NCBI GenBank assembly: GCA_025055755.1
Contig: JANWWF010000001.1
Coordinates: forward strand, 285,377-349,376
Reading direction: 5' to 3'
DNA: 64,000 bases
From: Candidatus Kapaibacterium sp.
GTDB lineage: Bacteria > Bacteroidota > Ignavibacteria > Kapaibacteriales > NICIL-2
The position numbers were made by a program, and so were the translations under genes. How positions within the stretch are numbered: position 1 is the first letter of the stretch; the number at the start of each line of letters is the position of its first letter. Under the pieces are notes generated by a model, which did no database searches, was not told the DNA's origin, and saw nothing but the letters and a program-made list of their open reading frames with translations. This document shows positions 371 through 13,834 of the stretch, piece by piece.

Positions 371-1729
371 CTATTGAACAACAGTGATCTCTACTCGGCG
401 GTTTGCCATTCTTCCTTGGGGGGTGCGATTGCTCTGGATTGGGTTGCGTGCCCCCATCCCCGATGCCAGCAAGCGTCCCCGGGGAATACCTTTACTCATT
501 AGATAGCGGACCACCTGCAATGCTCGCTCATCCGACACACGTTGTGTTTCCACTGGCGAGCCCCCAAAGTTGTCCGAGTGCCCGACAATACGTACCTCTG
601 CACGAGGATTCTGCTTGAGATAATCTGCTAAAGCATCTAAATACCGCCGTAGTTCATCTGTTAATGCTGTATCGGTAGGACTCGAATATCCAGTGAAAAT
701 TTGAAGCTGATTCGGCACAATGCGTACTGGAGGCAACGGTCGTGCTGGAGTAGGTGCTGTAGGCTGTGGAACAATGTCCACCGCTTCCGATGTCGGCAAT
801 AACGTTGCTATATAAAGACCATCTGTTGGGGGAATAGGTACATTTATCTGTTGCGTCGTTAACACCGGTAATGCTGGTGGAGCTGCCTGTTGAGCATTAG
901 GATTACGAGGGAGAATAGTTTCCGTAACAACATCTTCGCCAAATGTCAGTGCCGCTCCTCCACGAAGATATGCACTATTCCAGTTTGAACCATTTCTGGA
1001 ATAGCTAGTTGTTCCTATATGAAGTGTCAGGAATGGCGTGAGCGTCATTCTCCACGTCCCAATAAGCCCGGCAAATAAATCCCATCCTGCACCAATGTGC
1101 CCTCCGACACGTAAATAATTAGGCTGAAAGCCAATCCGACGGCGTACTTCGATTTGTTCATCATTATACCGAACATCTGTCCGTTCGAGAGCTTTGGTTG
1201 TAAGAACATCAATATCAGCGCCGACTAAAAAGTGTAAGCCTGGATAATCAGTGTAATAGTATCGCGCCTGAGGCATAAAAGTTATGTAGGTCAATACATT
1301 ACGTGCGACGATAGTATTATCCAACTCGAACGAAGGATTTAGAGGCAGTCCGGGTACTCGTGTAACCGACGTTGTTTGACGGATATCTACAATGCTGACC
1401 ATGAACGAGACTCCCCAAAGCGATCCTTGGGGATGATATACGTATTGCCCCCCGATGCCAATCCCTCCCCCTCCTACCCCACCACTGTTTAGCAACAAGT
1501 ACCCATCAGTAGGGCATACCAGGTTTGCAGGGATAATGAGTTTCCCAAAATGCATATGATAGGTACCAGAGAGCATAGGACCCACGCGCCAATCACCAGG
1601 TGAGCGCAGCATCACCACAGTATCCCCATCAGAGCGCAGATACCGTAAGCTGAGCGTGTCAATACCGGCTACTTGTGCCCATGCTGGCACAAGTATCAGG
1701 ACAATCAAGACAATAGCTCGCAGAACCAT
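371..1729 (-). CDS. OmpA-family outer-membrane protein
   Basis: A 452-aa protein with an N-terminal signal peptide (hydrophobic MVLRAIVLIVLILVPAWAQ). Residues about 30-270 have the alternating pattern expected of an outer-membrane beta-barrel or barrel-like domain. A Pro/Ala-rich linker (about 280-325) leads to a C-terminal OmpA domain (about 335-452) with the peptidoglycan-binding signature: VRIVGHSDNFGG, then SDERALQVVRYLMSKGI, ending NRRVEITVVQ. The family anchors the outer membrane to the cell wall. It is the last gene of a run starting near 7859: only 5 bp separate it from the gene upstream, so co-transcription is likely. The barrel assignment is less certain than the OmpA domain. Confidence 0.85.
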   Translation of the reverse strand: MVLRAIVLIVLILVPAWAQVAGIDTLSLRYLRSDGDTVVMLRSPGDWRVGPMLSGTYHMHFGKLIIPANLVCPTDGYLLLNSGGVGGGGIGIGGQYVYHPQGSLWGVSFMVSIVDIRQTTSVTRVPGLPLNPSFELDNTIVARNVLTYITFMPQARYYYTDYPGLHFLVGADIDVLTTKALERTDVRYNDEQIEVRRRIGFQPNYLRVGGHIGAGWDLFAGLIGTWRMTLTPFLTLHIGTTSYSRNGSNWNSAYLRGGAALTFGEDVVTETILPRNPNAQQAAPPALPVLTTQQINVPIPPTDGLYIATLLPTSEAVDIVPQPTAPTPARPLPPVRIVPNQLQIFTGYSSPTDTALTDELRRYLDALADYLKQNPRAEVRIVGHSDNFGGSPVETQRVSDERALQVVRYLMSKGIPRGRLLASGMGARNPIQSNRTPQGRMANRRVEITVVQ

Positions 1730-1734
1730 GGCAA

Positions 1735-3072
1735 TCAGCGCAGAAGTTGAATTTTCAAAATCGCGCGCGATAGCTCGACTGTTGGGTCATCAACAGGCTT
1801 AGCAATAAGCACGACATTGTAAAGGCCTTGCGATGCTTGATCAGGAGCGTTCCATACGATTGTGTTGAATGTACCAGGAGCAGTGCGAGACACAACAACA
1901 TTATCAAGCAGCAGTGCAAGCTCCTTGCCGGTGACATCATAAACCTTTGCTGTCATCCGAACGCGATCTTCAACCGTGTACCGGATAGTGGCCTGTGTTG
2001 TTGTCGGATTGGGATACACCGTTGCACTTGAAATCACGCTATTTGGCACTCGAATAGAAGTCGTATCGAGGAACCGCCTGCTTCCATCGAACATGATTGC
2101 TGAAAGCTCGTATTCATATACGACATCGCGTAACTCGACTGTATCAGGAGTTGACATTGAATAGTCAAATCCCACTGTCGTTGTTCCCTTTGAGAATAAT
2201 GCTGTGTCGAATGGAATGCCAAAGCGTCGTATCTCACGGAATTCCGTCTCGCTGGGCGGAAGACTTGAACACAAGCAGCGGCGTCGGATAATAAAGCCAC
2301 GCACCCCTTGCTCACAGAGTGTTGACCAATACAGTTGCACTAAGCGATCACCCAAGTATTCAGCCCGAAAGCTCCCCACTTTCAGCGTTAGACACAATTC
2401 TGGCGCCGGTGCAACACGAAAAGAATCGGTTCGCACTATCACCTGCTGCATATCTTTGATGCGAGGATAATTCCGCATTTCGACATTGTCGTCGGCACGA
2501 TACCACCGCACGCCATAGGCAATACTGTCCACTTCCATCTTGTATGCATTTGCTTGATAGTAATCGATCGGTTCCATCCAGCTCACTGAATTTCCAATAC
2601 GTCCTCCATCAGTCATCGTGATACGGAAACGCCCTAATCGTAGAGTGGAGTCAAACGGAAAGAACTTCGCGTCACGGAACTCATCTGGACCGTAGATGAA
2701 CACCGAAATCCATCCCTCATGTTGAGTTATGCAGTAGCTATAGCTTGTCAGCTGTGCATTCGAGTATGGTGCAATTGGTAAATCCGAGCTATTCGGTAGG
2801 AGCTCAACACGCATGGAATTAGGTGAGTACCGAGCTGGAGAAACGCCAACTACTTGGAATTGAAACGTCCCATTCGCCCATCGTTCCCACACACTTGATG
2901 TTCGGCGAAGTGTCAAGGAAAATTCAATTGTCTGCGGATCAACCACTGCAATATCCTCGATGGAGACGATCGAGAGGATCTCTCGCTGAATGGATTGCGC
3001 ACAGCCAGGAACTGGGTGTGCAAAGAATGCGACAGTGATAAATCCTACTGCTATGATGACCAATCGTCTCAT
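1735..3072 (-). CDS. Secreted protein with T9SS type A C-terminal sorting domain
   Basis: A 445-aa protein with a signal peptide (about residues 1-25, MRRLVIIAVGFITVAFF). The last ~90 residues match the type IX secretion sorting domain: VYPNPTTTQATIRYTVED, then MTAKVYDVTGKELALLLDN, and a final SQGLYNVVLIA strand. Such domains send proteins across the outer membrane and attach them to the surface. The middle (about 30-340) is beta-rich with a LKVGSFRAEYLGDRLVQLYW segment typical of fibronectin-like modules before T9SS tails; I see no enzyme motif. The ATG overlaps the stop of the upstream gene (ATGA), which indicates translational coupling. Its cargo function is unknown. Confidence 0.8.
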   Translation of the reverse strand: MRRLVIIAVGFITVAFFAHPVPGCAQSIQREILSIVSIEDIAVVDPQTIEFSLTLRRTSSVWERWANGTFQFQVVGVSPARYSPNSMRVELLPNSSDLPIAPYSNAQLTSYSYCITQHEGWISVFIYGPDEFRDAKFFPFDSTLRLGRFRITMTDGGRIGNSVSWMEPIDYYQANAYKMEVDSIAYGVRWYRADDNVEMRNYPRIKDMQQVIVRTDSFRVAPAPELCLTLKVGSFRAEYLGDRLVQLYWSTLCEQGVRGFIIRRRCLCSSLPPSETEFREIRRFGIPFDTALFSKGTTTVGFDYSMSTPDTVELRDVVYEYELSAIMFDGSRRFLDTTSIRVPNSVISSATVYPNPTTTQATIRYTVEDRVRMTAKVYDVTGKELALLLDNVVVSRTAPGTFNTIVWNAPDQASQGLYNVVLIAKPVDDPTVELSRAILKIQLLR

Positions 3073-5198
3073 CGGGGTACGTTTGTTGTTCTACCGCGAT
3101 TGTTCCATGTTTTGTTTGCATCGCGGGTCGTCACGATGCCGCTCATGTCTGTATCACGATTGAGGTATCCTTCGGTAACGCATCCATTCCAAATCGCGTC
3201 GTAGTCTGTTCGATCATTGATATCGACACTACCATCACCATTAACGTCACCGGCCACCATGCCAAAGATGACACCATCGGTGGGAGTATAATCAATTGGT
3301 TTGAGTGCTGCAGCTCCACCAAGCACTGCTGTTGATGAGCTGAGCGATAGCGGCTGGGGTAGTGTTTCGTCCCCTGCCAAACGATATGGGGATGCTGTGA
3401 TAATCGCCAAATGCGTGCGATGATGAATCGCGACATAATATGCAGTAGTATCCACTGTAGGATCGAAACACAGTCGCGACGCACCATCTACATCAACAAG
3501 AGACCCGTCGGCTCGAAGAAGGGCGGTACGATAAATGCGATGTTGACTTGTCATTGTCGGCCGAAGTTCGACAAGAACCCAGTCCACAATTCCCGTGTCA
3601 ATGACTCGGGCATTGATGGCATTTCGATTAGGATCTCGGTTATAGGGGTAAATGTTTGGTGGAGTCGGTGGAATTAGGCGACGGCGAGCTAAGTCCGTTG
3701 CCATAGCCCCATTCCGGTACGGACCTTCAAGTACCACTTTTGCATCAAGACATACTTGTGTCGGAACTGGATATCCAATTGCAAATGGTCCCAACTGGGA
3801 CAATGTATCTGCCAGGGAATATGCCCACCCACTATTATCATACGACGCAGGAGTGCGCGATGAGCGAATATTTCGCCAGCGTGCACCATTCCAATGCAAG
3901 AGAATAACCTTCGAGCGATCGAGTCCGTTTGATTCATCAGTCTGAGGTTCCTGAGGGGTATCAAGCCACGCGTAGCCTATTGTATATGGTAACGCTCCAA
4001 GTAGCCTTCCTTCCTTATCTGTTGCATCTACAAACAACGCTCTCCGCACTTTGGTGGTCCCTTCTGGAAAAGGTGGGAATGTCTGCGGTAAGCTCCGGAG
4101 AGTAATTGCTCCTGGTACTTGCGCATTCGGAACCCGAGGAGCTATCCATGTAAATCGGTTATTGTAGAATTGGGGAATGCTATCCCCTCGAATCCCTGTC
4201 CGACGGAACGAGCCAATGACTTCTGCTCGAGGATGCCTATACAGGGGATCTAACTCAGCATGTGTGTAGGTGAGTACGTATCGCTCTACTGTATCACGCT
4301 CTGTAAACACAAACGTTGGTTGAGATTCGGTGCCCACAACCAACGAATCGTTTACCGTAACATGTCGATCTAACTGCAGCCCACCACTATTTAGTACGGT
4401 AAGGGATTGGAGGATTCGTTCATCTGCGGGAATTTCGTTTCCGGTGACAATGCGCCCGCTACCTTGGTAACGGATAGAGTATCCTCCCTGATACTTGAGA
4501 AAGTCTTCCACCGCTCCTGAGTCTGTCCGTATTACCAGTGACCGCGCTTCCATTGAGATATTGCTCCCTTCTGTATTCTTGAGCACCCCGCGATGGAGAT
4601 ACAACGTATGGCGCATCGCGATAAGCGCAGAATCTCCCATACGTACCCCCGCCGGATTATCCACTTCAAGTACACTCATCTGCCCGTTCCCTGTGAGCAG
4701 TTGCTCTCGTGTACCGCGAAGAACAATTGCTCCTACTGCGCCTTCTCGATTGACTGCTCCATCATGATGAACCCGACCAAGAGCAACTAATGGAAGATCC
4801 CGCTGTATGCGTAGCTCACTGGGCTTTTCCACCACTAAAGTATCGGAACTTACAAGCGAACGTCTTGCTGTTGGATCTAAATGCTTGGTACTTTGCCCTC
4901 GGAAGTAGAGCACCTCATAGGTAATCTGCGGCACTTGTTGCGCCTTACCACTACTATCACCGATAAATTCTGTTCGTCCGCGGAGAATGTCTTGCTCGAT
5001 CCGCGCATCACCAGTAATTGTAATTCGTCCACTCTCGTTACGGATGAAACCACCACTATAGCTGTGCAGTTGCCCCCGGACTTCGATAAGTCCTCTATTG
5101 ACAATGCGCCCGCAGGTGTTATTGTCAAGCTGCTGGCTCCAGCTGTGCGATGCAACAGCCCCAACTCCAATAAGAAGGAAACCAAACAATTTATTCAT
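3069..5198 (-). CDS. Secreted N-x-G-x-I protein with C-terminal dockerin-like Ca-binding repeats
   Basis: Start chosen at 5198 (MNKLFGFLLIGVGAVASHSWS, a clear signal peptide), giving 709 aa; the open frame extends 75 codons further but only inside the upstream gene. The mature N-terminus carries NTCGRIVNRGLIEVRG, matching the N-terminus of the next gene (NEACGRISNSGTIRIR). The body is beta-rich with repeated N-x-G / SGxI strands, suggesting a beta-helix or filamentous fold. The last ~70 residues contain two loops like dockerin type I/EF-hand repeats: GDVNGDGSVDINDR and NRDTDMSGIVTTRDAN. Dockerin-like loops bind calcium and can mediate attachment or close a surface protein. Both ends overlap neighbours (8 bp upstream, 4 bp downstream). 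No T9SS tail is visible. Function unknown. Confidence 0.7.
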   Translation of the reverse strand: MNKLFGFLLIGVGAVASHSWSQQLDNNTCGRIVNRGLIEVRGQLHSYSGGFIRNESGRITITGDARIEQDILRGRTEFIGDSSGKAQQVPQITYEVLYFRGQSTKHLDPTARRSLVSSDTLVVEKPSELRIQRDLPLVALGRVHHDGAVNREGAVGAIVLRGTREQLLTGNGQMSVLEVDNPAGVRMGDSALIAMRHTLYLHRGVLKNTEGSNISMEARSLVIRTDSGAVEDFLKYQGGYSIRYQGSGRIVTGNEIPADERILQSLTVLNSGGLQLDRHVTVNDSLVVGTESQPTFVFTERDTVERYVLTYTHAELDPLYRHPRAEVIGSFRRTGIRGDSIPQFYNNRFTWIAPRVPNAQVPGAITLRSLPQTFPPFPEGTTKVRRALFVDATDKEGRLLGALPYTIGYAWLDTPQEPQTDESNGLDRSKVILLHWNGARWRNIRSSRTPASYDNSGWAYSLADTLSQLGPFAIGYPVPTQVCLDAKVVLEGPYRNGAMATDLARRRLIPPTPPNIYPYNRDPNRNAINARVIDTGIVDWVLVELRPTMTSQHRIYRTALLRADGSLVDVDGASRLCFDPTVDTTAYYVAIHHRTHLAIITASPYRLAGDETLPQPLSLSSSTAVLGGAAALKPIDYTPTDGVIFGMVAGDVNGDGSVDINDRTDYDAIWNGCVTEGYLNRDTDMSGIVTTRDANKTWNNRGRTTNVPR

Positions 5199-7407
5199 CG
5201 CCAATTTGCAATCGCCCAGCATTTTGGATCCACCCAGTGTTGCGTAACAAATTGACGCGGAGCGTCGGACGCGGTGTTGTCGCAAAGATGACCAGACCTT
5301 TCTCCTTCGGCTCTGCTGCCGTCGTCCGTCGTGCATAACGCTCGAAATCCACTGCAGAAAGGTCTTCTCGTGGCGTACCAAGTGTATCGCACCCTCGCAA
5401 TTCCAGAATACCGTTACGTCCAACCGTTGTTGCTAAGTATTCACTTGCACTGCCAATGACAAATAGACCATTAGTCTGTGGTGCAGTAGAATCCACACCA
5501 AACACTAACGCCGCATTCGCATTGGAGTGATCAACGATCACATAAGCAGCCATTGCTAATGGGTAAGCTTCTGGTATTGCATAACCATCCCATCCATTTG
5601 CTACAGGTCGAACAAATCCCGCCCAGACATTGTGGCGAATAACTGCAGTATCATAAGGCAACGGCTCAGCCTGGTCGATCCATGTTGCAGGATTTGACCA
5701 CCGTCCATCTCGTGCGGTTATAACACGCGATGGAGCCGCACGAAGGAGAAGGTCGCTCCCATCGAGTAAGCCGTTTTCGCCGCGCGGGGCAATATCTGCA
5801 GCTTCTACCCAAAGGAATGCACAGCTTGTATCTATTGAGCGTTGATAAGCATTGCCGATACGGTTAGGCTCTGCATTGCGGGGGGCGTTGTATGTCCGCA
5901 ATCCACGCACGGAGGCTAAGCCACCGAGTGAACGTGTTTCATCAACACGAAAGCCAGCTCGTACTGTCGCACGCCATTGGGGCGGGGTACGAGTGCTTGG
6001 TCCATAACCAACAGTGATCTTACGGTAAACATCACTTGAGGGGTTGTAGCTGTTCGGTGCTGCCGAAGGAAATACGCCAAGTGAGATACTTGATGGCAAC
6101 CCCGTGGTATCACTAAAGCGAAAGGTTGTAAAGCGATTGTTGAAAGTGAGAGGTTGCTGCATCACAACTGAACTTCGTAATCCTTCATGCCGGAAAAGAC
6201 CGACAACCTCAGAACCTGCCTGGCAATCAGACAGTGTACGATCGTATGTCACCGGTGTCAAGGTAGAATCAGTATGGTGCACAGTTAGTGTATAGTCACC
6301 CATACGTATCGCATGAGGCTTAGATCCCGTATTGATATGCAGTCCGCAGCCAACATGGACATCCCCATTTGCGCGTTTATCTCCCCCTTGCGTTTCGAGT
6401 TTGCCATAACGATGGTTGGGGGGAGCGGCAGTTGCTTGGAGAATTTGGTTCGGATACGTGCCTAGATACCGCACGGTGGTTCCGCACTCATACAATGCGT
6501 TTAGGAGCGATGGAGCGGTGTTTAGATATGTTCCGTACACATCCATTGCAGCGGTGCCAAGCAGAGAGTAGCGACCTGCTGTTGCCGATGCATCCACACG
6601 GAATGTCGAGCCTGAATCAATAACAAACGCGGCCGGCTGCTGCGTACTGGAAACGATCAGATGGCCGTTGTTATCTGCTCGCAAAAGGGAATTATTTGAA
6701 ACCCGAAGTGAAGAGGTGGGATGAGTAACGAGGATTGCACTTCCATTCCCTGCCACTGCCATTGGAGCTTCTGTAAGGGATTGTCCCCGCAGGTCGAGTA
6801 CCCCACCGCTATTGACACTAAATCCACCCACATTCGATGCATGATTGACGAATTGTTCACGGACTACTGCAGTATCTGTAGCTAAGAATTTGTTCTGCCC
6901 TTGTGCTCCATTGAGGAGAGTTAAGCTACGATATGCGTTGGCACCCTTTTCCGGAACAACCTGCTGTTGCTGTGTTCCGTCGTAATAGAATGTTCCCTCG
7001 TATACTCGACGTCCCGTGCCCGTCGCAATAGAGTATTGCGCCCCAACAAATACCGAGTCACTCACAAGTTTTGCTCCACCGGACAAAGCAAGATTAGTGT
7101 ACCAGCGTGCCTGAACACGTTGGCTGTCAGAAATCGCGGACCACAAGACAGTACCCCCTATACGACTTGTGGCAGATGCACCGAGAGAATTACTTCCGGT
7201 AAAGCGATTACCGATAGCTGCCATCTCAATAGTGCCACTATTGACGACTTGAGCAACAGGTGCCTCATTCTGAAAGTGTGCATTAACAGTCCGAATGCGT
7301 ATTGTCCCGCTATTCGATATACGGCCACAGGCTTCATTGACAATATTTTGTCCCACCAAGCTATTGACCGCTACCACCATCGTAAGTATGAGGAGCCGCA
7401 GCATCAT
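5191..7407 (-). CDS. Secreted beta-rich N-x-G-x-I protein, paralogue of its neighbours
   Basis: A 738-aa protein with a signal peptide (MMLRLLILTMVVAVNSLVG). After cleavage it begins NIVNEACGRISNSGTIRIRT, like the downstream neighbour. Several N-S-G-T-I type turns and a DGRWSNPATWIDQAEPLP segment (about residues 570-590) occur; the latter resembles the W-S-x-x-x-T-W ... P ... D motif seen in G8-like and beta-helix modules of surface proteins. It ends NTGWIQNAGRLQIGDE, again the N-x-G theme. No catalytic motif is visible. It overlaps the upstream gene by 4 bp (ATGA) and the downstream gene by 8 bp. It could be a filament or a cell-surface scaffold; the family is not one I can name. Confidence 0.65.
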   Translation of the reverse strand: MMLRLLILTMVVAVNSLVGQNIVNEACGRISNSGTIRIRTVNAHFQNEAPVAQVVNSGTIEMAAIGNRFTGSNSLGASATSRIGGTVLWSAISDSQRVQARWYTNLALSGGAKLVSDSVFVGAQYSIATGTGRRVYEGTFYYDGTQQQQVVPEKGANAYRSLTLLNGAQGQNKFLATDTAVVREQFVNHASNVGGFSVNSGGVLDLRGQSLTEAPMAVAGNGSAILVTHPTSSLRVSNNSLLRADNNGHLIVSSTQQPAAFVIDSGSTFRVDASATAGRYSLLGTAAMDVYGTYLNTAPSLLNALYECGTTVRYLGTYPNQILQATAAPPNHRYGKLETQGGDKRANGDVHVGCGLHINTGSKPHAIRMGDYTLTVHHTDSTLTPVTYDRTLSDCQAGSEVVGLFRHEGLRSSVVMQQPLTFNNRFTTFRFSDTTGLPSSISLGVFPSAAPNSYNPSSDVYRKITVGYGPSTRTPPQWRATVRAGFRVDETRSLGGLASVRGLRTYNAPRNAEPNRIGNAYQRSIDTSCAFLWVEAADIAPRGENGLLDGSDLLLRAAPSRVITARDGRWSNPATWIDQAEPLPYDTAVIRHNVWAGFVRPVANGWDGYAIPEAYPLAMAAYVIVDHSNANAALVFGVDSTAPQTNGLFVIGSASEYLATTVGRNGILELRGCDTLGTPREDLSAVDFERYARRTTAAEPKEKGLVIFATTPRPTLRVNLLRNTGWIQNAGRLQIGDE

Positions 7408-7859
7408 GGCAGACCCACCTCAATAAGACCACTATTTGAACATGAGCCGCGATTAATAAAATCGCGCCATACTACAATTGTGGAACGGTTTTGTATTTCC
7501 CCCTGGTTCACGATTGAGCCTTTTACAGTCAGCAATCCCGTCCCATTTCGTATCAAGAAACCATAGGCGGTTGTACACGGGATACCTCCCGTTGTGAGAT
7601 TGCTATCCACGGTTGCAACTGCGCGTCCGTTGAGTGTTGCACGTCCTGAGTGGATGTGCATTGCGCCTGTTATCCGCAGACTTGCACTATCCTCAGCAGT
7701 TAGTTGACCATTTGCAACACTACTGTAACTGCCATTGATTAGCATGACCGCACGGGGACTAAGGTAAATAGTTCCACCATTATTGGTCATTGTTTGCGCT
7801 GACACGACAGTAGTTACCACCGTACATAGAGCAAGAACGGCACCTAACCGCCACTGCAT
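7404..7859 (-). CDS. Small secreted N-x-G-x-I protein
   Basis: Start placed at 7859 (MQWRLGAVLALCTVVTTVVSAQ, a signal peptide ending A-Q), giving 151 aa; the frame is open 17 codons further upstream but without signal-like sequence. The mature part repeats the theme of the two downstream genes: NNGGTIYLSP, NQGEIQNRSTIVV, NRGSCSNSGLIEVGLP. It looks like a short version of the same fold, with its C-terminus resembling that of the 738-aa protein. Its stop overlaps the next ATG, so the three are translated in series. It is separated from the fibre gene by 70 bp. Function unknown. Confidence 0.65.
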   Translation of the reverse strand: MQWRLGAVLALCTVVTTVVSAQTMTNNGGTIYLSPRAVMLINGSYSSVANGQLTAEDSASLRITGAMHIHSGRATLNGRAVATVDSNLTTGGIPCTTAYGFLIRNGTGLLTVKGSIVNQGEIQNRSTIVVWRDFINRGSCSNSGLIEVGLP

Positions 7860-7929
7860 CCTGTTTGTTCTCCGTGTACTTTTTGTGGAAAGTATCGGCA
7901 CAATGCACATGGTGCTTTACTCAGTAGAA

Positions 7930-10905
7930 TTACTGAATGCGAGTGAACTTGATATACGAGCTGGCACGTGCTACTGTTGGTGTTGCATCAGCAGTACTTT
8001 GTGCCCATTGGAGGCGTATAGTCCCGCTGGTATTGCCCATAATCACGATACCACGGACGAACACTACTGCTGCTCCTCCAGCAGGTATTCCAAGAGACGC
8101 GCTCCCACTGCTAAGCACCCCTGCACGGAATGCGGTGGGGCTACCATCATTGCTGTGGTAACTGAGCTTATAGGTAGCCCCTGTTGGCACACTTAATCCA
8201 AAAGTCACCCCTGGTGTTGACGAGGTAGAACCAAAGTCAATCATCCCCTCAAATTCCCAAATCTCATTGGCTCCGGCTAAGGTAAACAAGTGATCATCAT
8301 CTTGTAAGACATTTGAATTGGAGACACTTTCATCGCTTGTTTTATATCGCGTAACAATCGTTGAATTAGCTGAAATCGTACTGATAAGTGGCATCCATCG
8401 CACACCGTCATAATACCAGAATCCCTCTTGCGCGGCGGTTGTCACATACACCAAAAGACCTTCTGCTGGTGTAGCTATTGCGTCGCGCTCGCTGGCAGTC
8501 ATACGCGGAACAAGGAAACCACGGCTATTACTATTGAGCTCAACAAGAGCGGAGCTACTTGGTCCGTTTGTCCCTATCCCAATCCGACCATCTGCAGTGA
8601 TGCGGAGTCGTTCCTGATTGTTTGTAATAATTGGAAGAGGGACGTTGTCTTTTGTCCCTAACACTTGTTCGGTGCCGAGGGAATTTCCCCCAAGTAGCCA
8701 GGTGGAGCTTCCAAACAAGCTAATCGGTGAAGCCCACTGCGGCGCTGCTGAAAATCCTTGCGAAATAAGCACCTGCCCGGGGGCCCCAGGCCCGAACCCA
8801 CCACCTTGGAGCGATGCAACCAACTCTCCGGATACATTTAAATGGTGAACATATGTGCGATTAGGATTACCATTCGGCAACAGAGTATTCCGCAATGGGG
8901 TCGGCGTAAGAGAGTCAACATGCCCTAAATAGACATTCCCTATAGCACCAGCTACCAGTGCATAGTTATTCGTCCCACCCGCTGCTACAAAATATCCACC
9001 AACATTCAAGTATGACAGAGACTGTTTCGATGCTTGGAATGCCATCGTCACAGTACTGGAGGCATCGGATCCTGGAACACTGCCAGTTGAATACACAGCA
9101 AGGGCACTGTAGTTAACCTGTGTGCTGTTGTCAGTTATTTGGACTGTACCAAACGCATTGCTGACAGCGGTGTTGGTTCCAATGCCAATTGCTACTTTCC
9201 CATCCGGTTTTATGCGTATTCGCTCTGTGTTATTGGTGCGTATCGCAAGTGCACGATTATCCGTCGTACCGAGAAAATTGAATTGAGGTGCATCAGGATT
9301 GGTTCCCGTATTCCCCAGTGTTGACCATGCCCCAAGGGTGCCTGCACTGAGCGTTTGCCATGTTGGTGCACCAGCACCATTAGACACTAACACCTGTCCT
9401 GGCAGTCCCGCTGCTGTGAATCCAAGTGCTGTGCCTGTTGAGTAAGCAACAGAGCCTGGCCCTCCAATTGTAGAAACTCCCGTCCCCCCTTTATCTACAG
9501 GCAACACCCCTGCTACTTCTCCTGTACCAAGATCTACCGCTGTCGTCAAGGATCCAGTGCCAACAAATTGATTTGCCCGGATAACGCCTGTGCCACTTGG
9601 AATCAGCACAGAACTATTCCCCACTATCAGCGTTTGCCCTGTATTCGTCCCTGTCTTCACAGAGTCGAAGGGAACAGCAATAGGAATTGGACGAGAGACG
9701 ATTATGGAATCTGCGCGAAGTACCGTTGTCGTAAGCGTATCAATCCGACCATCGCGTACATAGAGTGTGTCAAAACGTGCAAAGCGACTCAGGAGACTAT
9801 CAATTCGACCGAGATGGGAGTAAAGCGTATCAATCCGACCATCCCGCACATACAATGTGTCATAGCGGCTAAAGTGCCCAACAAGACTGTCTATACGAGC
9901 AACCAGACTTCGGAGCGTATCAATTCGACCATCGCGGGCAAAGAGGGTATCGCGGACAAATAGGGTATCGAAACGTCCATAGCGAGAAATCACGCTATCG
10001 AGGCGAGCTATATGGCTCCAGAGCGTATCAATCCGCCCATCGCGGACAAAGAGGGTATCAAAACGCCCAAACCGTCCAATTAGGCTATCGATCCGTGCAA
10101 GATGGCTCCAGAGCGTGTCCACTCTTCCATCTCGGGAATAGAGACTATCCGCTCTTCCTAACCGAGTGAATAACGTATCAATCCTTCCTGCACGTGCAAA
10201 TAGCGTATCGACTGTAAGCTGTCGTAGCAGCAATCGGCGAATTGAGAGGGAATCAAGGGATTTTGTCCACTGAGGCTGAGATGAAGAGCCATTGCTTACC
10301 AACAGATCTCCAGGTTGTCCTGGATTACCACTCATTTGTAAAAGAGCAGTGGACCCCTGCAAATTGAGTCCTTGAGCGGTGATTTGTCCATTCCCATTTA
10401 CTTGAAACTGTGAGGCAGCCCCTACCGACAATAAAGCAAGTGGGTTGGTAGTTCCTATTCCGACGTTCCCTGTGGGAAGAATTGTGATGCGCTCTTGGTT
10501 GTTAGTCTTGAAAATTAGTGGCTGCGCATCGGTTGTACCTAAGAAATTCAATGTAGGATTGATCCCGCTATTCCCTTGCAAGGACCAGAAAGTAGCAGTG
10601 CCAATTCCTAAAGGTACCCAATTAGGTGCTGTCGGCGTACCGTCATTGTATTCAAATCGGTTAGTTGTTGTATTGAAGATTATTAGGCTTTTTGCGGGAA
10701 GAATGATTGCATCCCGTTGAGCAGTTGTCATACGAGGGATCAGCAACCCTTGGCGTGTTGAACGGAGTTCAAGTAGCGCAGATGTATCCGGCGTAGAAGT
10801 TCCAATTCCAACGTTCCCATCCGCCCATAAAGAAGACGACAGCACAGCAAGTATGACACCTAGGTACAAAATCAGTCGTTGAGCGGAGGAATGCTGCCGT
10901 ATCAT
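7930..10905 (-). CDS. Large secreted tail-fibre-like protein with decapeptide-repeat stalk
   Basis: Start taken at the ATG at 10905 (MIRQHSSAQRLILYLGVILA, signal peptide); a TTG 4 codons upstream is the alternative. 991 aa. The modules in order are: a GNVGIGTSTPD...LLELRS...QRDAI segment (about 30-100), repeated near residues 770-860; three GTTD/TKD...NNQERIRI... units followed by GIGT turns; a stalk of about 18 ten-residue repeats (about 231-400); a VLPVDKGGTG segment typical of phage tail fibres (about 475); and a beta-sandwich-like C-terminus ending SSYIKFTRIQ. Such modular fibres occur as exported proteins in Bacteroidota/Ignavibacteria relatives. Likely a surface fibre or adhesin. No T9SS tail is seen, so the export route is open. 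Confidence 0.7.
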   Translation of the reverse strand: MIRQHSSAQRLILYLGVILAVLSSSLWADGNVGIGTSTPDTSALLELRSTRQGLLIPRMTTAQRDAIILPAKSLIIFNTTTNRFEYNDGTPTAPNWVPLGIGTATFWSLQGNSGINPTLNFLGTTDAQPLIFKTNNQERITILPTGNVGIGTTNPLALLSVGAASQFQVNGNGQITAQGLNLQGSTALLQMSGNPGQPGDLLVSNGSSSQPQWTKSLDSLSIRRLLLRQLTVDTLFARAGRIDTLFTRLGRADSLYSRDGRVDTLWSHLARIDSLIGRFGRFDTLFVRDGRIDTLWSHIARLDSVISRYGRFDTLFVRDTLFARDGRIDTLRSLVARIDSLVGHFSRYDTLYVRDGRIDTLYSHLGRIDSLLSRFARFDTLYVRDGRIDTLTTTVLRADSIIVSRPIPIAVPFDSVKTGTNTGQTLIVGNSSVLIPSGTGVIRANQFVGTGSLTTAVDLGTGEVAGVLPVDKGGTGVSTIGGPGSVAYSTGTALGFTAAGLPGQVLVSNGAGAPTWQTLSAGTLGAWSTLGNTGTNPDAPQFNFLGTTDNRALAIRTNNTERIRIKPDGKVAIGIGTNTAVSNAFGTVQITDNSTQVNYSALAVYSTGSVPGSDASSTVTMAFQASKQSLSYLNVGGYFVAAGGTNNYALVAGAIGNVYLGHVDSLTPTPLRNTLLPNGNPNRTYVHHLNVSGELVASLQGGGFGPGAPGQVLISQGFSAAPQWASPISLFGSSTWLLGGNSLGTEQVLGTKDNVPLPIITNNQERLRITADGRIGIGTNGPSSSALVELNSNSRGFLVPRMTASERDAIATPAEGLLVYVTTAAQEGFWYYDGVRWMPLISTISANSTIVTRYKTSDESVSNSNVLQDDDHLFTLAGANEIWEFEGMIDFGSTSSTPGVTFGLSVPTGATYKLSYHSNDGSPTAFRAGVLSSGSASLGIPAGGAAVVFVRGIVIMGNTSGTIRLQWAQSTADATPTVARASSYIKFTRIQ
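9721..10215 (-). repeat. About 18 tandem decapeptide (30-bp) repeats inside the fibre gene
   Basis: In-frame units with consensus R-[IFVLY]-D-[TS]-L-[FWYI]-x-[RH]-x-[GA], for example RIDTLFTRLG, RVDTLWSHLA, RFDTLYVRDG, RIDTLYSHLG. A higher-order 30-residue period is visible: RFDTL(F/Y)VRDG, then RIDTL(W/Y)SH(I/L)(A/G), then R(I/L)DS..., about four times. One junction (RFDTLFVRDTLFARDG) is 4 residues short, a slip in the array. At DNA level the units are degenerate, so the array is old or under selection at protein level. Confidence 0.9.
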
Positions 10906-11012
10906 GTGCTCTGTCAAGGTAGTGAGACCCTAATTTGTATTACGGCCAATAATTCGAGAAGTCTTTTTGCCGCAATACAGATGCAAATTTGGGGTTGCAA
11001 TAGTCCCTGGCC

Positions 11013-11032
11013 AATACGTACTACTACGTATT
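11013..11032. promoter_or_regulatory. 20-bp perfect palindrome between response regulator and fibre gene
   Basis: AATACGTA-CTAC-TACGTATT: two perfect 8-bp inverted arms with a 4-nt centre, 108 bp upstream of the fibre start and 89 bp past the end of the regulator gene. Size and symmetry fit an operator for a dimeric LuxR/NarL-type HTH protein; no T-tract follows, so a terminator is less likely. Binding by the adjacent regulator is inference. Confidence 0.45.
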
Positions 11033-11120
11033 TCACAATAATGCCAAGGGGGTAGATAAATTGTAAAGACAGATTAGAGGGATTGTAACAGCGATTTGGA
11101 GAGGGAGCGCAAGAAGTACG

Positions 11121-11831
11121 TTAGTAAGATTTCGCTGCGCTTGTGTCTCGATTAGAGCTGAAATACATTGTATGGAGAAGGGCGTAACGGACCAATGAAG
11201 CTGCATTCTTTGCACCCAATTTTTCCATAAGGTGGGCTCTGTGTGTTTCTACCGTTCGTGGACTGATAAACAGGCGATCAGCAATTTCATTGCTGGTTAG
11301 CCCTTGTGCCACTAACTCAAGTATTTCTTGCTCTCGTTTAGTAAGCGTCACTGTTGGAGGGGGCGCAAATGCTTCTTGTTTTTGGCGGCCACCCTGAATG
11401 AGTGCAATGATTGAGCGCGAGAAGACTCGTGCTCCCTGTAAGACTGAATGGATAGCATCGATCAACTCCTGGCGAGAGACATCTTTGGATAAGTATCCAT
11501 CTGCCCCAACTGCAAGCGCTTGTTCAAGATAATGTCGATCTTCAAATGTTGTCAGCATAATTATGTATGGCTTTCCAACCGGTGTATGACTGCGTAATTG
11601 CCGTGCAGCATCAAGCCCATTCTGTCGCGGCAGAAGGATATCCAGTAATACCACATCGGGATTCCGATTCTGAACAAGTTCAACTACTGCATCTCCACTT
11701 GCTGCCTCTCCTACGACCTCTATGGTGGGATCTGTGGCTAACATTCGACTCAATCCAAGCCGTACCAACTCATGATCATCCACTATTGCTACTCGGATGC
11801 TTTCACTGGTTGTGCTCTGTTGGCGGCTCAT
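11121..11831 (-). CDS. NarL/LuxR-family two-component response regulator
   Basis: A 236-aa protein. The receiver domain (about residues 12-130) has the acidic pair D18/D19, the phosphoacceptor D64 (VVLLDILLP), the conserved T94 (MLTT) and K116 (LSKD). A 30-residue linker leads to a LuxR-type HTH (about 163-225; TKREQEILELVAQGL, then SPRTVETHRAHLMEKL). These proteins activate or repress transcription when phosphorylated by a histidine kinase; no kinase is next to it. It lies 74 bp downstream of nadE on the same strand and directly upstream of the fibre gene, whose promoter region contains a 20-bp palindrome, so it may control the surface module (inference). Confidence 0.92.
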   Translation of the reverse strand: MSRQQSTTSESIRVAIVDDHELVRLGLSRMLATDPTIEVVGEAASGDAVVELVQNRNPDVVLLDILLPRQNGLDAARQLRSHTPVGKPYIIMLTTFEDRHYLEQALAVGADGYLSKDVSRQELIDAIHSVLQGARVFSRSIIALIQGGRQKQEAFAPPPTVTLTKREQEILELVAQGLTSNEIADRLFISPRTVETHRAHLMEKLGAKNAASLVRYALLHTMYFSSNRDTSAAKSY

Positions 11832-11905
11832 GTGGGAAATCAGATCGTGACTTAGTCAAATTGTCGGATTTTTTTGAAAAAGGTTAACTTGCACCGTAAA
11901 AGCTA

Positions 11906-13834
11906 TTACAGCACTTGTAACCACACTGCATTGCTTGCATCGCTTGGCATACGCCAATCGGCCCGGGGTGACAGGGCGATCGAACCAACTTTAGGACCAT
12001 CAGGCAAACAAGAACGTTTGAATTGATTAGAGAAAAACCGTTGTATATACAGCTCAAGCCACATTTTTAGTTCCTCGGGACGGTAAATTCCCTCGAATGC
12101 CCATATTGCAAGCTGGAGAAGCTTCGGCGGCTTCGCTCCCCACCGTATAGTGTGATAAAGATAAAAATCGTGCACTGCATACGGTCCGAGCACCTCCTCA
12201 GTCCGCTGCCGTATCGAGCCATCAGGATTGGGAGGAAGTAACTCTGGGCTAATAGGTGTTGACAGGATTGCCTCAATCGCCGCCTTTGCAGCAGGATTTG
12301 GTGTTGTCTGCCCCCACCATTCGATGATGTAGCGTACCAACGTCTTTGGGATCCCAGCATTGACGCCATACATACTCATATGATCACCACCATAGGTAGT
12401 CCACCCAAGCGCAAGCTCGGACAAATCGCTTGTACCAACCATCAATGCATTATAGCGATGACATAAATCCATGAGGATTTGAGTGCGTTCCCGAGCTTGG
12501 GCATTCTCATAGAGAACGTCGTCTCGCCTGGTATGCTCCAAGTCCCGTAGATGCTGCTCAACAGCGGACGTGATGGGTATAGTGAGGACCGTTACGCCCA
12601 ACGCTCGCGCAAGTTCCTCAGCTTGCCGAGGTGTTCGCTCCGACGTTCCAGGTCCAGGAAGAATGACAGCATAAATGCCATTTCTATCGTATCCCAAAAT
12701 ATCGAATGCTTCAACGCAGACCAAAAGCGCCAATGCCGAATCGAGTCCGCCTGAGACCCCTAGTACTACTGAACGAATACCAGTATGAGACAACCTCTTT
12801 GCTAGTGCTGTGCGTTGTATCGTTAAAATCTCTTGGCATCGAGCACTTCTCTCTTGTACCTGCGTGGGAACAAACGGATAGGCTTCAATTGTGCGCAAGG
12901 GGCGGACATCAACTAATACCGGAACTTCAACTTCAACCCGACGCAGCCGTGGAATCAAATGCTGACCAAATGTCGCTATTCGCCGCCGATCGAATGCTAA
13001 ACGCTCGGTATCAATATCTGCCACACTCCACCGCGACTCGAATGAGAAAGAGCGATCTTCATTCAATATAGTGCCATTTTCTGCCACTATACAATGACCA
13101 CTAAAAACTGTATCTGTGGTCGATTCTCCTGCCCCTGCTGACGCATAAACATATGCTGCAATACACCGTGCCGACTGCATGCGAACCAGGTCGCGCCTAT
13201 ATTCCGCCTTCATCAGCAGCTCATTGCTTGCAGAAAGATTGACTAAGACGTCTGCCCCTCCAACAGCCAATCGCCCACTTGGCGGCTCCACAGCCCAAAG
13301 GTCTTCACATAATTCAATCCCTACTACGCCCTGGACAGTGCCCTCACATTGCAACTCAAACAGTATATCCGTCCCGAAAGGAATACTTTGGTTGTTGATG
13401 GTAATTGTCGGAGGAAGATCACCAACCCCTCGACTGAACCAACGGTGTTCGTAATACTCACTGTAGTTGGGCACAAATTGTTTAGGCACAATTCCTGCAA
13501 TTCCCTTGCTGCTTATGACAACAGCACAATTGAACAGCCGACCCCAGCCGCGTACTGGTGCTCCCACAATAAGCACGCCTTGCTCAACAGCAACCAACTC
13601 AGCAAGCTGTATAAGGGCTTGATCAGATGCATCAAGCAGTGGCTGCTGGAGCAGCAAATCTCCGCATGTGTACCCGACGGTAGCAAGCTCAGGAAATACT
13701 GCAAGCTGAACCCCTTGAGCGCGTAGTTGACGGTAAGCTTCAACAATACTTGCGACGTTGTGATCAACGTCGGCTACACGGACAGATGAACTGATAGCAG
13801 CAACCCGAAGATAGCCAAGACGAGTAAGATTCAC
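11906..13834 (-). CDS. nadE: Glutamine-dependent NAD+ synthetase
   Basis: The final step of NAD synthesis: amidation of nicotinate adenine dinucleotide with glutamine as N donor. An N-terminal nitrilase-fold glutaminase domain has the Glu of FPELATVGY, the Lys of VPKQFVPNY and the Cys of GIELCEDLW; a C-terminal synthetase domain has the ATP-binding SGGLDSAL and GTSDLSELALG. I place the start at a GTG (13834; VNLTRLGYLRVAAIS), giving 642 aa, close to the ~640-680 aa of the large NadE type. The frame stays open upstream, but that extension would run through a terminator and the tRNA gene, so it is not coding. No ATG is available near the conserved start. Confidence 0.93.
   Translation of the reverse strand: MNLTRLGYLRVAAISSSVRVADVDHNVASIVEAYRQLRAQGVQLAVFPELATVGYTCGDLLLQQPLLDASDQALIQLAELVAVEQGVLIVGAPVRGWGRLFNCAVVISSKGIAGIVPKQFVPNYSEYYEHRWFSRGVGDLPPTITINNQSIPFGTDILFELQCEGTVQGVVGIELCEDLWAVEPPSGRLAVGGADVLVNLSASNELLMKAEYRRDLVRMQSARCIAAYVYASAGAGESTTDTVFSGHCIVAENGTILNEDRSFSFESRWSVADIDTERLAFDRRRIATFGQHLIPRLRRVEVEVPVLVDVRPLRTIEAYPFVPTQVQERSARCQEILTIQRTALAKRLSHTGIRSVVLGVSGGLDSALALLVCVEAFDILGYDRNGIYAVILPGPGTSERTPRQAEELARALGVTVLTIPITSAVEQHLRDLEHTRRDDVLYENAQARERTQILMDLCHRYNALMVGTSDLSELALGWTTYGGDHMSMYGVNAGIPKTLVRYIIEWWGQTTPNPAAKAAIEAILSTPISPELLPPNPDGSIRQRTEEVLGPYAVHDFYLYHTIRWGAKPPKLLQLAIWAFEGIYRPEELKMWLELYIQRFFSNQFKRSCLPDGPKVGSIALSPRADWRMPSDASNAVWLQVL

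Follow-up and report, generated by a model that had tools for sequence, protein, structure and literature searches.

The question raised by this locus is what a long array of decapeptide repeats does within a giant, phage-fiber-like protein encoded on a bacterial chromosome. The gene encodes 995 residues on the minus strand at positions 7930-10917 of the window (the whole 64,000-nucleotide stretch of DNA that was analyzed), counted from the listed TTG start; an ATG at 10905 is the likelier start. By eye, residues 5-32 resemble a signal peptide, ending LWA with DG following. A plus-strand open reading frame at 9568-9963 was dismissed as mechanical overlap with the minus-strand fiber frame.

The array occupies residues 234-407 (9697-10218, minus strand), essentially where the initial annotation had placed it, and consists of decads of the form R-h-D-[TS]-L-x-x-R-x-G as judged by motif spacing and self-identity. 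The strict motif h-D-[TS]-[LIVM] occurred 17 times between residues 236 and 402, so that the array itself stands while the earlier count of about 18 becomes 17. The spacing between motifs was exactly 10 residues save for one interval of 16 (316 to 332). This interval is the slip of 4 residues noted previously (20 minus 4), and it holds an extra hexad, DTLFAR (residues 323-328; 9934-9951, minus strand), which is common to this array and one ortholog (L006/L053). Self-identity reached 0.40 for a lag of 10 residues and 0.52 for a lag of 30, compared with maxima of 0.18 and 0.22, respectively, in 5000 shuffles. Given that the lag-30 value lies above all 5000 shuffles, the previously proposed 30-residue superperiod is real; one such unit reads RIDTLWSHIA RIDSLIGRFG, then RFDTLYVRDG.

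Further regularities were apparent in 84 motif-anchored decads taken from this array and its orthologs, a few of which lie in the flanks, adjacent to the 10-spaced runs but not within them. Position 1 was Arg in 72 of the 84, position 10 was Gly or Ala in 67, and position 5 was L, I or V; the Asp and the Thr/Ser that follows it are demanded by the definition of the motif. The array contains no Lys, Glu, Asn, Gln, Pro, Met or Cys, is rich in Arg (16%) and Asp (13%), and has I, L, V, F, Y or W at about 38% of its residues, in fixed positions. Mismatch between decads in the D-[TS]-L codons was 0.18, 0.15 and 0.62 at codon positions 1, 2 and 3, respectively. This third-position excess indicates purifying selection on the minus-strand reading and repeats old enough for synonymous drift. 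Thus, the decad array is a selected coding feature. In agreement with the initial annotation, the repeat matched no known family in Pfam or NCBIfam, where pentapeptide, LRR and other repeat models gave no match at E values up to 1, and no solved structure in PDB by sequence.

Four further genomes of the genus (G001, G002, G003 and G005) carry orthologs that include the array. Counted from the 10-residue spacings, complete arrays held 11 (L054), 14 (L053), 17 (this window) and 23 (L052) decads; the G001 ortholog is split by a contig end and was left out of these counts. The flanks on either side of the variable arrays were about 77% identical. Variable copy number had been named beforehand as support for a stalk, and the range of 11 to 23 decads among orthologs supplies it. 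The L052 array is built of 50-residue (five-decad) units, one 150-nucleotide unit being 100% identical to its neighbor, and L003 has 30-residue units with a 90-nucleotide-lag stretch that is 92% identical in DNA. Such near-identical neighboring units indicate that expansion was recent in those two arrays; the units of the present array have diverged among themselves, to about 70% DNA identity at best. Divided by 3, each of the four counts gives a remainder of 2, as though whole three-decad turns come and go; this pattern is only suggestive, having been noticed afterwards and with n = 4.

In two orthologs of the same family (L032 and L033), both ends of the fiber and the neighboring genes are kept around other central modules, with zero decads. 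Given the variable decad number between strongly conserved flanks, and given that other modules fill the middle in these orthologs, the array can be read as a spacer. The closed genome G004, of the same genus, retains a 157-residue open frame corresponding to the N-terminal part of the fiber gene only. This remnant (L035, G004:C1:970000-976000, at about 3341-3811) adjoins remains of the following gene, which suggests a deletion in G004 and an adhesin that is dispensable.

The initial annotation had looked to Ignavibacteria and Kapabacteria at large for the repeat, an expectation that was not borne out. Beyond the genus, a decad profile gave no convincing match in 391 class genomes and 395 phylum genomes, and no relative of the decads was found in viral contigs or phage records; within the genomes searched, the array was found only in this genus. 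Weak extra-genus matches to a single sequence or to the profile were taken as chance or low complexity, those that were read being a pentapeptide-repeat protein (L047), a low-complexity DSVRADSIR stretch from Bacteroidota (L142) and unrelated enzymes (L143 and L144).

A possible origin for the array is visible in a paralogous giant fiber of G005 (L056), in which a module of ~130 residues is present in more than fifteen near-identical copies. In each copy, a few degenerate decads precede a PFDSVKSG..QTLTVGNGS..GTGIVRAN segment, the counterpart of the segment 3′ of the array here. Given this architecture, the array resembles an internally expanded form of a fiber module common to both proteins. 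The paralog decads (LDSVDVGRLT VDHIWSDTLT ADSVRARVGR FDSVVVDFVR) are Val/Thr-rich and beta-looking. The L056 locus (G005:C1:33500-49500, 709-12000) comprises several open frames (644, 468 and 2248 residues), and the breaks reflect either real frameshift or assembly error. Many more fiber paralogs are present in the genome to which the window belongs (G000; contigs C60, C72 and C114, L057-L059), several of them near contig ends, which suggests that its fiber repertoire is repeat-rich and assembly-breaking.

The remainder of the protein is a series of phage-type modules, all on the minus strand. The N-terminal domain (residues 33-104; 10606-10821; NVGIGT..GLLIPRMTTAQRDAI..) falls within a match to the PHROG 9942 tail fiber family at residues 33-196, and a second copy of this type of domain is found at residues 775-846. 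It is followed by fiber module 1 (residues 108-180; 10378-10596), which reads WSLQGNSG..NFLGTTD..PLIFKTNNQER..GNVGIGTTNP. Residues 127-195 matched PDB entry 8ojn by phmmer with an E value of 6e-5; this entry is a crystal structure of Bd3182, one of the mosaic adhesive trimers (MATs) of Bdellovibrio (PMC10769870). Judged by this sequence homology, the modules are probably of the beta-helical trimeric type found in MATs. The array is succeeded by a module (residues 408-500; 9418-9696; VPFDSVKTG.N..QTL.VGNGS...GTG..RANQF..GEVAGVLPVDKGGTG) that is conserved in orthologs and in paralogs L049/L056. Module 2 (residues 528-580; 9178-9336) repeats a motif of module 1, LGN..FNFLGTTD..RTNNTER, and PHROG 18345, also a tail fiber family, matches residues 513-798. 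Module 3, together with the second N-terminal-type domain, was assigned by sequence comparison to residues 738-846 (8380-8706).

The C-terminal tip (residues 846-995; 7933-8382, minus strand) is matched by PHROG 24062 and has 46 viral homologs. An AF2 model of the C-terminal 150 residues, built with 30 of the viral homologs aligned, was all-beta with a pLDDT of 92, and it confidently predicts a TNF/C1q-like jelly roll. By VIA-align, the tip came closest to the TNF-like lectins PLTL and the BC2L-C N-terminal domain, with a Z of 11.5 and an rmsd of 2.2 Å across 117 residues; C1q-type and BclA heads ranked next. The tip of the Bdellovibrio MAT Bd2734 (8okw) was among the proteins listed by Foldseek (E 1.5e-3). 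The model is thus consistent with a diversified MAT tip of known adhesive fold, and TNF-like proteins are usually trimers (PMC12914763). Four viral contigs with the same tip (L066, L085, L086 and L091) encode collagen-like GXX (triple-helix) repeats in open reading frames of the fetched region, and many structural matches of the tip among phage proteins in BFVD bear the names collagen triple helix repeat or tail fiber. Given that collagen-like repeats accompany the tip in viruses, the knob seems to be carried on other kinds of stalk as well.

The tail-fiber matches in PHROG and the viral homologs of the tip raise the question of whether the gene belongs to the tail of a prophage or tailocin. 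The surrounding genes make this very improbable. A NarL/LuxR-type response regulator (11121-11831) lies upstream, and three further genomes of the genus, all named as Chlorobiota or Candidatus Kapabacteria MAGs, keep the housekeeping gene order trxB-MFS-nadE-response regulator together with the fiber and the next genes. Three genes on the same strand (7404-7910, 5191-7407 and 3069 to about 5339) follow the fiber, and beyond them come a T9SS type-A sorting-tail protein (TIGR04183; 1735-3072) and, last in the series and on the fiber strand, an OmpA-family protein (371-1729). No phage morphogenesis genes adjoin the fiber, and the decads occur on no phage record or viral contig examined. Together with the signal peptide, these data place the fiber in a cell-envelope locus that is not a prophage and uphold the earlier description of a phage-tail-fiber-like yet chromosomal secreted protein. 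The fiber itself has no T9SS tail; the downstream OmpA-family and T9SS-tail proteins are possible candidates for a surface-anchoring apparatus. The stretch at 3069-3300 encodes a C terminus reading GDVNGDGSVDINDRTDYDAIWN...DTDMSGIVTTRDANKTWNNRG, which is dockerin/EF-hand-like by eye and has no match in Pfam. PADLOC returned no hit.

The fold adopted by the decads was approached by prediction. An AF2 monomer model of the stalk, run with its three orthologs and forming part of the check proposed at the outset, gave a pLDDT of 30, which establishes neither a fold nor plain disorder; its low-confidence trace switches between helix and strand at intervals of about 30 residues. In a Fourier analysis of hydrophobicity, the peaks at 72, 108, 144 and 180 degrees were mixed and differed between orthologs, so the analysis did not decide between alpha and beta structure. 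A flexible, disordered linker would agree with the low confidence throughout, but is improbable for a sequence with strong selection, an invariant Asp, about two-fifths of its residues hydrophobic at fixed positions, and no Pro, Lys, Glu, Gln or Asn. The initial annotation had suggested a coiled coil or a beta-solenoid; its stalk-like array is supported, and the two structures fare differently. A strict period of 10 corresponds to 10/3, or 3.33, residues per turn, the assumed lower limit for coiled coils (Hartmann et al., PMC4786415), and no confident helix was predicted. Given this period and a composition without the usual helix formers (no Glu, Lys or Gln), an ordinary coiled coil is less likely and an intertwined beta-type trimer is favored. 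A beta-solenoid formed by one chain, each 30-residue rung being a turn of three decads, is possible but unlikely: it would explain the superperiod and the shared remainder of the decad counts, but the five-decad unit of L052 would rotate its faces, and the adjoining modules and tip are of trimeric types, with which a trimeric fiber fits better. Moreover, AF2 usually recognizes regular single-chain solenoids, and the array gave a pLDDT of only 30.

The alternation of helix and strand in the low-confidence trace makes a mixed alpha/beta structure possible for a trimeric stalk. Here, two decads of every 30 residues (RIDTLWSHIA RIDSLIGRFG) would make up a short helix of coiled-coil type, with the third (RFDTLYVRDG) as a beta layer, an arrangement that would account for a superperiod of 30 and not 10. 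Hydrophobic positions 2, 5, 9, 12, 16 and 19 of the unit fit heptads when read from the sequence, and beta layers are known to occur in coiled coils where the periodicity is too low (PMC4786415). We nevertheless regard this reading as doubtful, given that the trace is unreliable at a pLDDT of about 30, that the five-decad unit of L052 breaks a strict 2+1 pattern, that the paralog decads look beta-like, and that the array lacks Glu, Lys and Gln. An intertwined, beta-rich trimer carrying ladders of Asp-Thr/Ser and Arg is preferred, although unproven.

Taken together, the data are probably best explained by a MAT-like trimeric surface adhesin in which an amplified decad spacer, or stalk, carries a TNF/C1q-like lectin-type knob with tunable reach. 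The fiber would be a chromosomal, exported adhesin related to phage fibers and built like the Bdellovibrio MATs, with an N-terminal domain on the anchor side, tandem trimeric modules, and the knob at its C terminus. The internally amplified array would hold this knob, putatively of a sugar-binding type, off the cell, each decad forming one rung of an intertwined and probably beta-rich trimeric stalk. The invariant Asp-Thr/Ser and the Arg may form lateral ladders or salt bridges, a proposal for which the precedent is the beta-helix of T4 gp5, where the N/D position of the VxGxxxxx octad provides a hydrogen-bond ladder and a charged position provides salt bridges (PMC4576200). Recombination between near-identical repeats could add or remove three- or five-decad units and thereby tune the reach of the knob. 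Nearly perfect short repeats with natural length variants of this kind could uncover a new fold among fibrous trimers and show how bacteria adjust adhesin reach. It is a tentative suggestion that the decad signature itself marks a new trimeric stalk fold distinct from the coiled coil, collagen, the VxG beta-helix and the triple beta-spiral, with a length quantized in three-decad turns and evolving by unit gain and loss.

Several known systems share parts of this design. The T4 gp5 triple-stranded beta-helix is likewise a short-period repeat stalk of tunable length with Asn/Asp ladder and salt-bridge positions, but its octads carry VxG whereas the array is made of h-D-[TS]-L decads spaced by 10, and the two have no sequence match. 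The phi29 head fiber and the R-pyocin rods offer further short-repeat, intertwined trimeric stems in phage-type fibers. The rods use a helix-plus-turn motif (PMC6116203) and do not match the array in sequence, and the phi29 gp8.5 stem was rejected as a template, its repeat being about 26 residues by eye and its composition unlike. At the tip, the fold resembles PLTL and the BC2L-C N-terminal domain, yet identity is 11-14% and sugar binding by the tip is putative. Phage tail fibers with a TNF/C1q-like end (PHROG 24062, BFVD) have a homologous C-terminal domain, often with collagen-like repeats; by contrast, the present fiber is host-encoded, has a signal peptide, and carries decads in place of those repeats. 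The closest overall likeness is to the Bdellovibrio MAT superfamily which, in the available portion of Caulton et al. (2024, PMC10769870), comprises exported chromosomal fibers of about 1000 residues with phage-like modules, a conserved, beta-rich N-terminal domain of ~130 residues, and variable C-terminal tips that are TNF-like in Bd2734 and Bd2439. The fiber's own N-terminal domain matches PHROG 9942, its host is of a Kapabacteria type not known as a predator, and a decapeptide stalk is not described for the Bdellovibrio MATs in that portion of the account. Most likely, then, the decad-stalked fiber follows the known MAT-like adhesin design with an array absent from the family libraries searched, to which only the fold of the decads could add more, and it carries the mosaic, phage-derived adhesive fiber design into an uncultured Chlorobiota/Kapabacteria lineage, here with a lectin-type knob of TNF-like fold.
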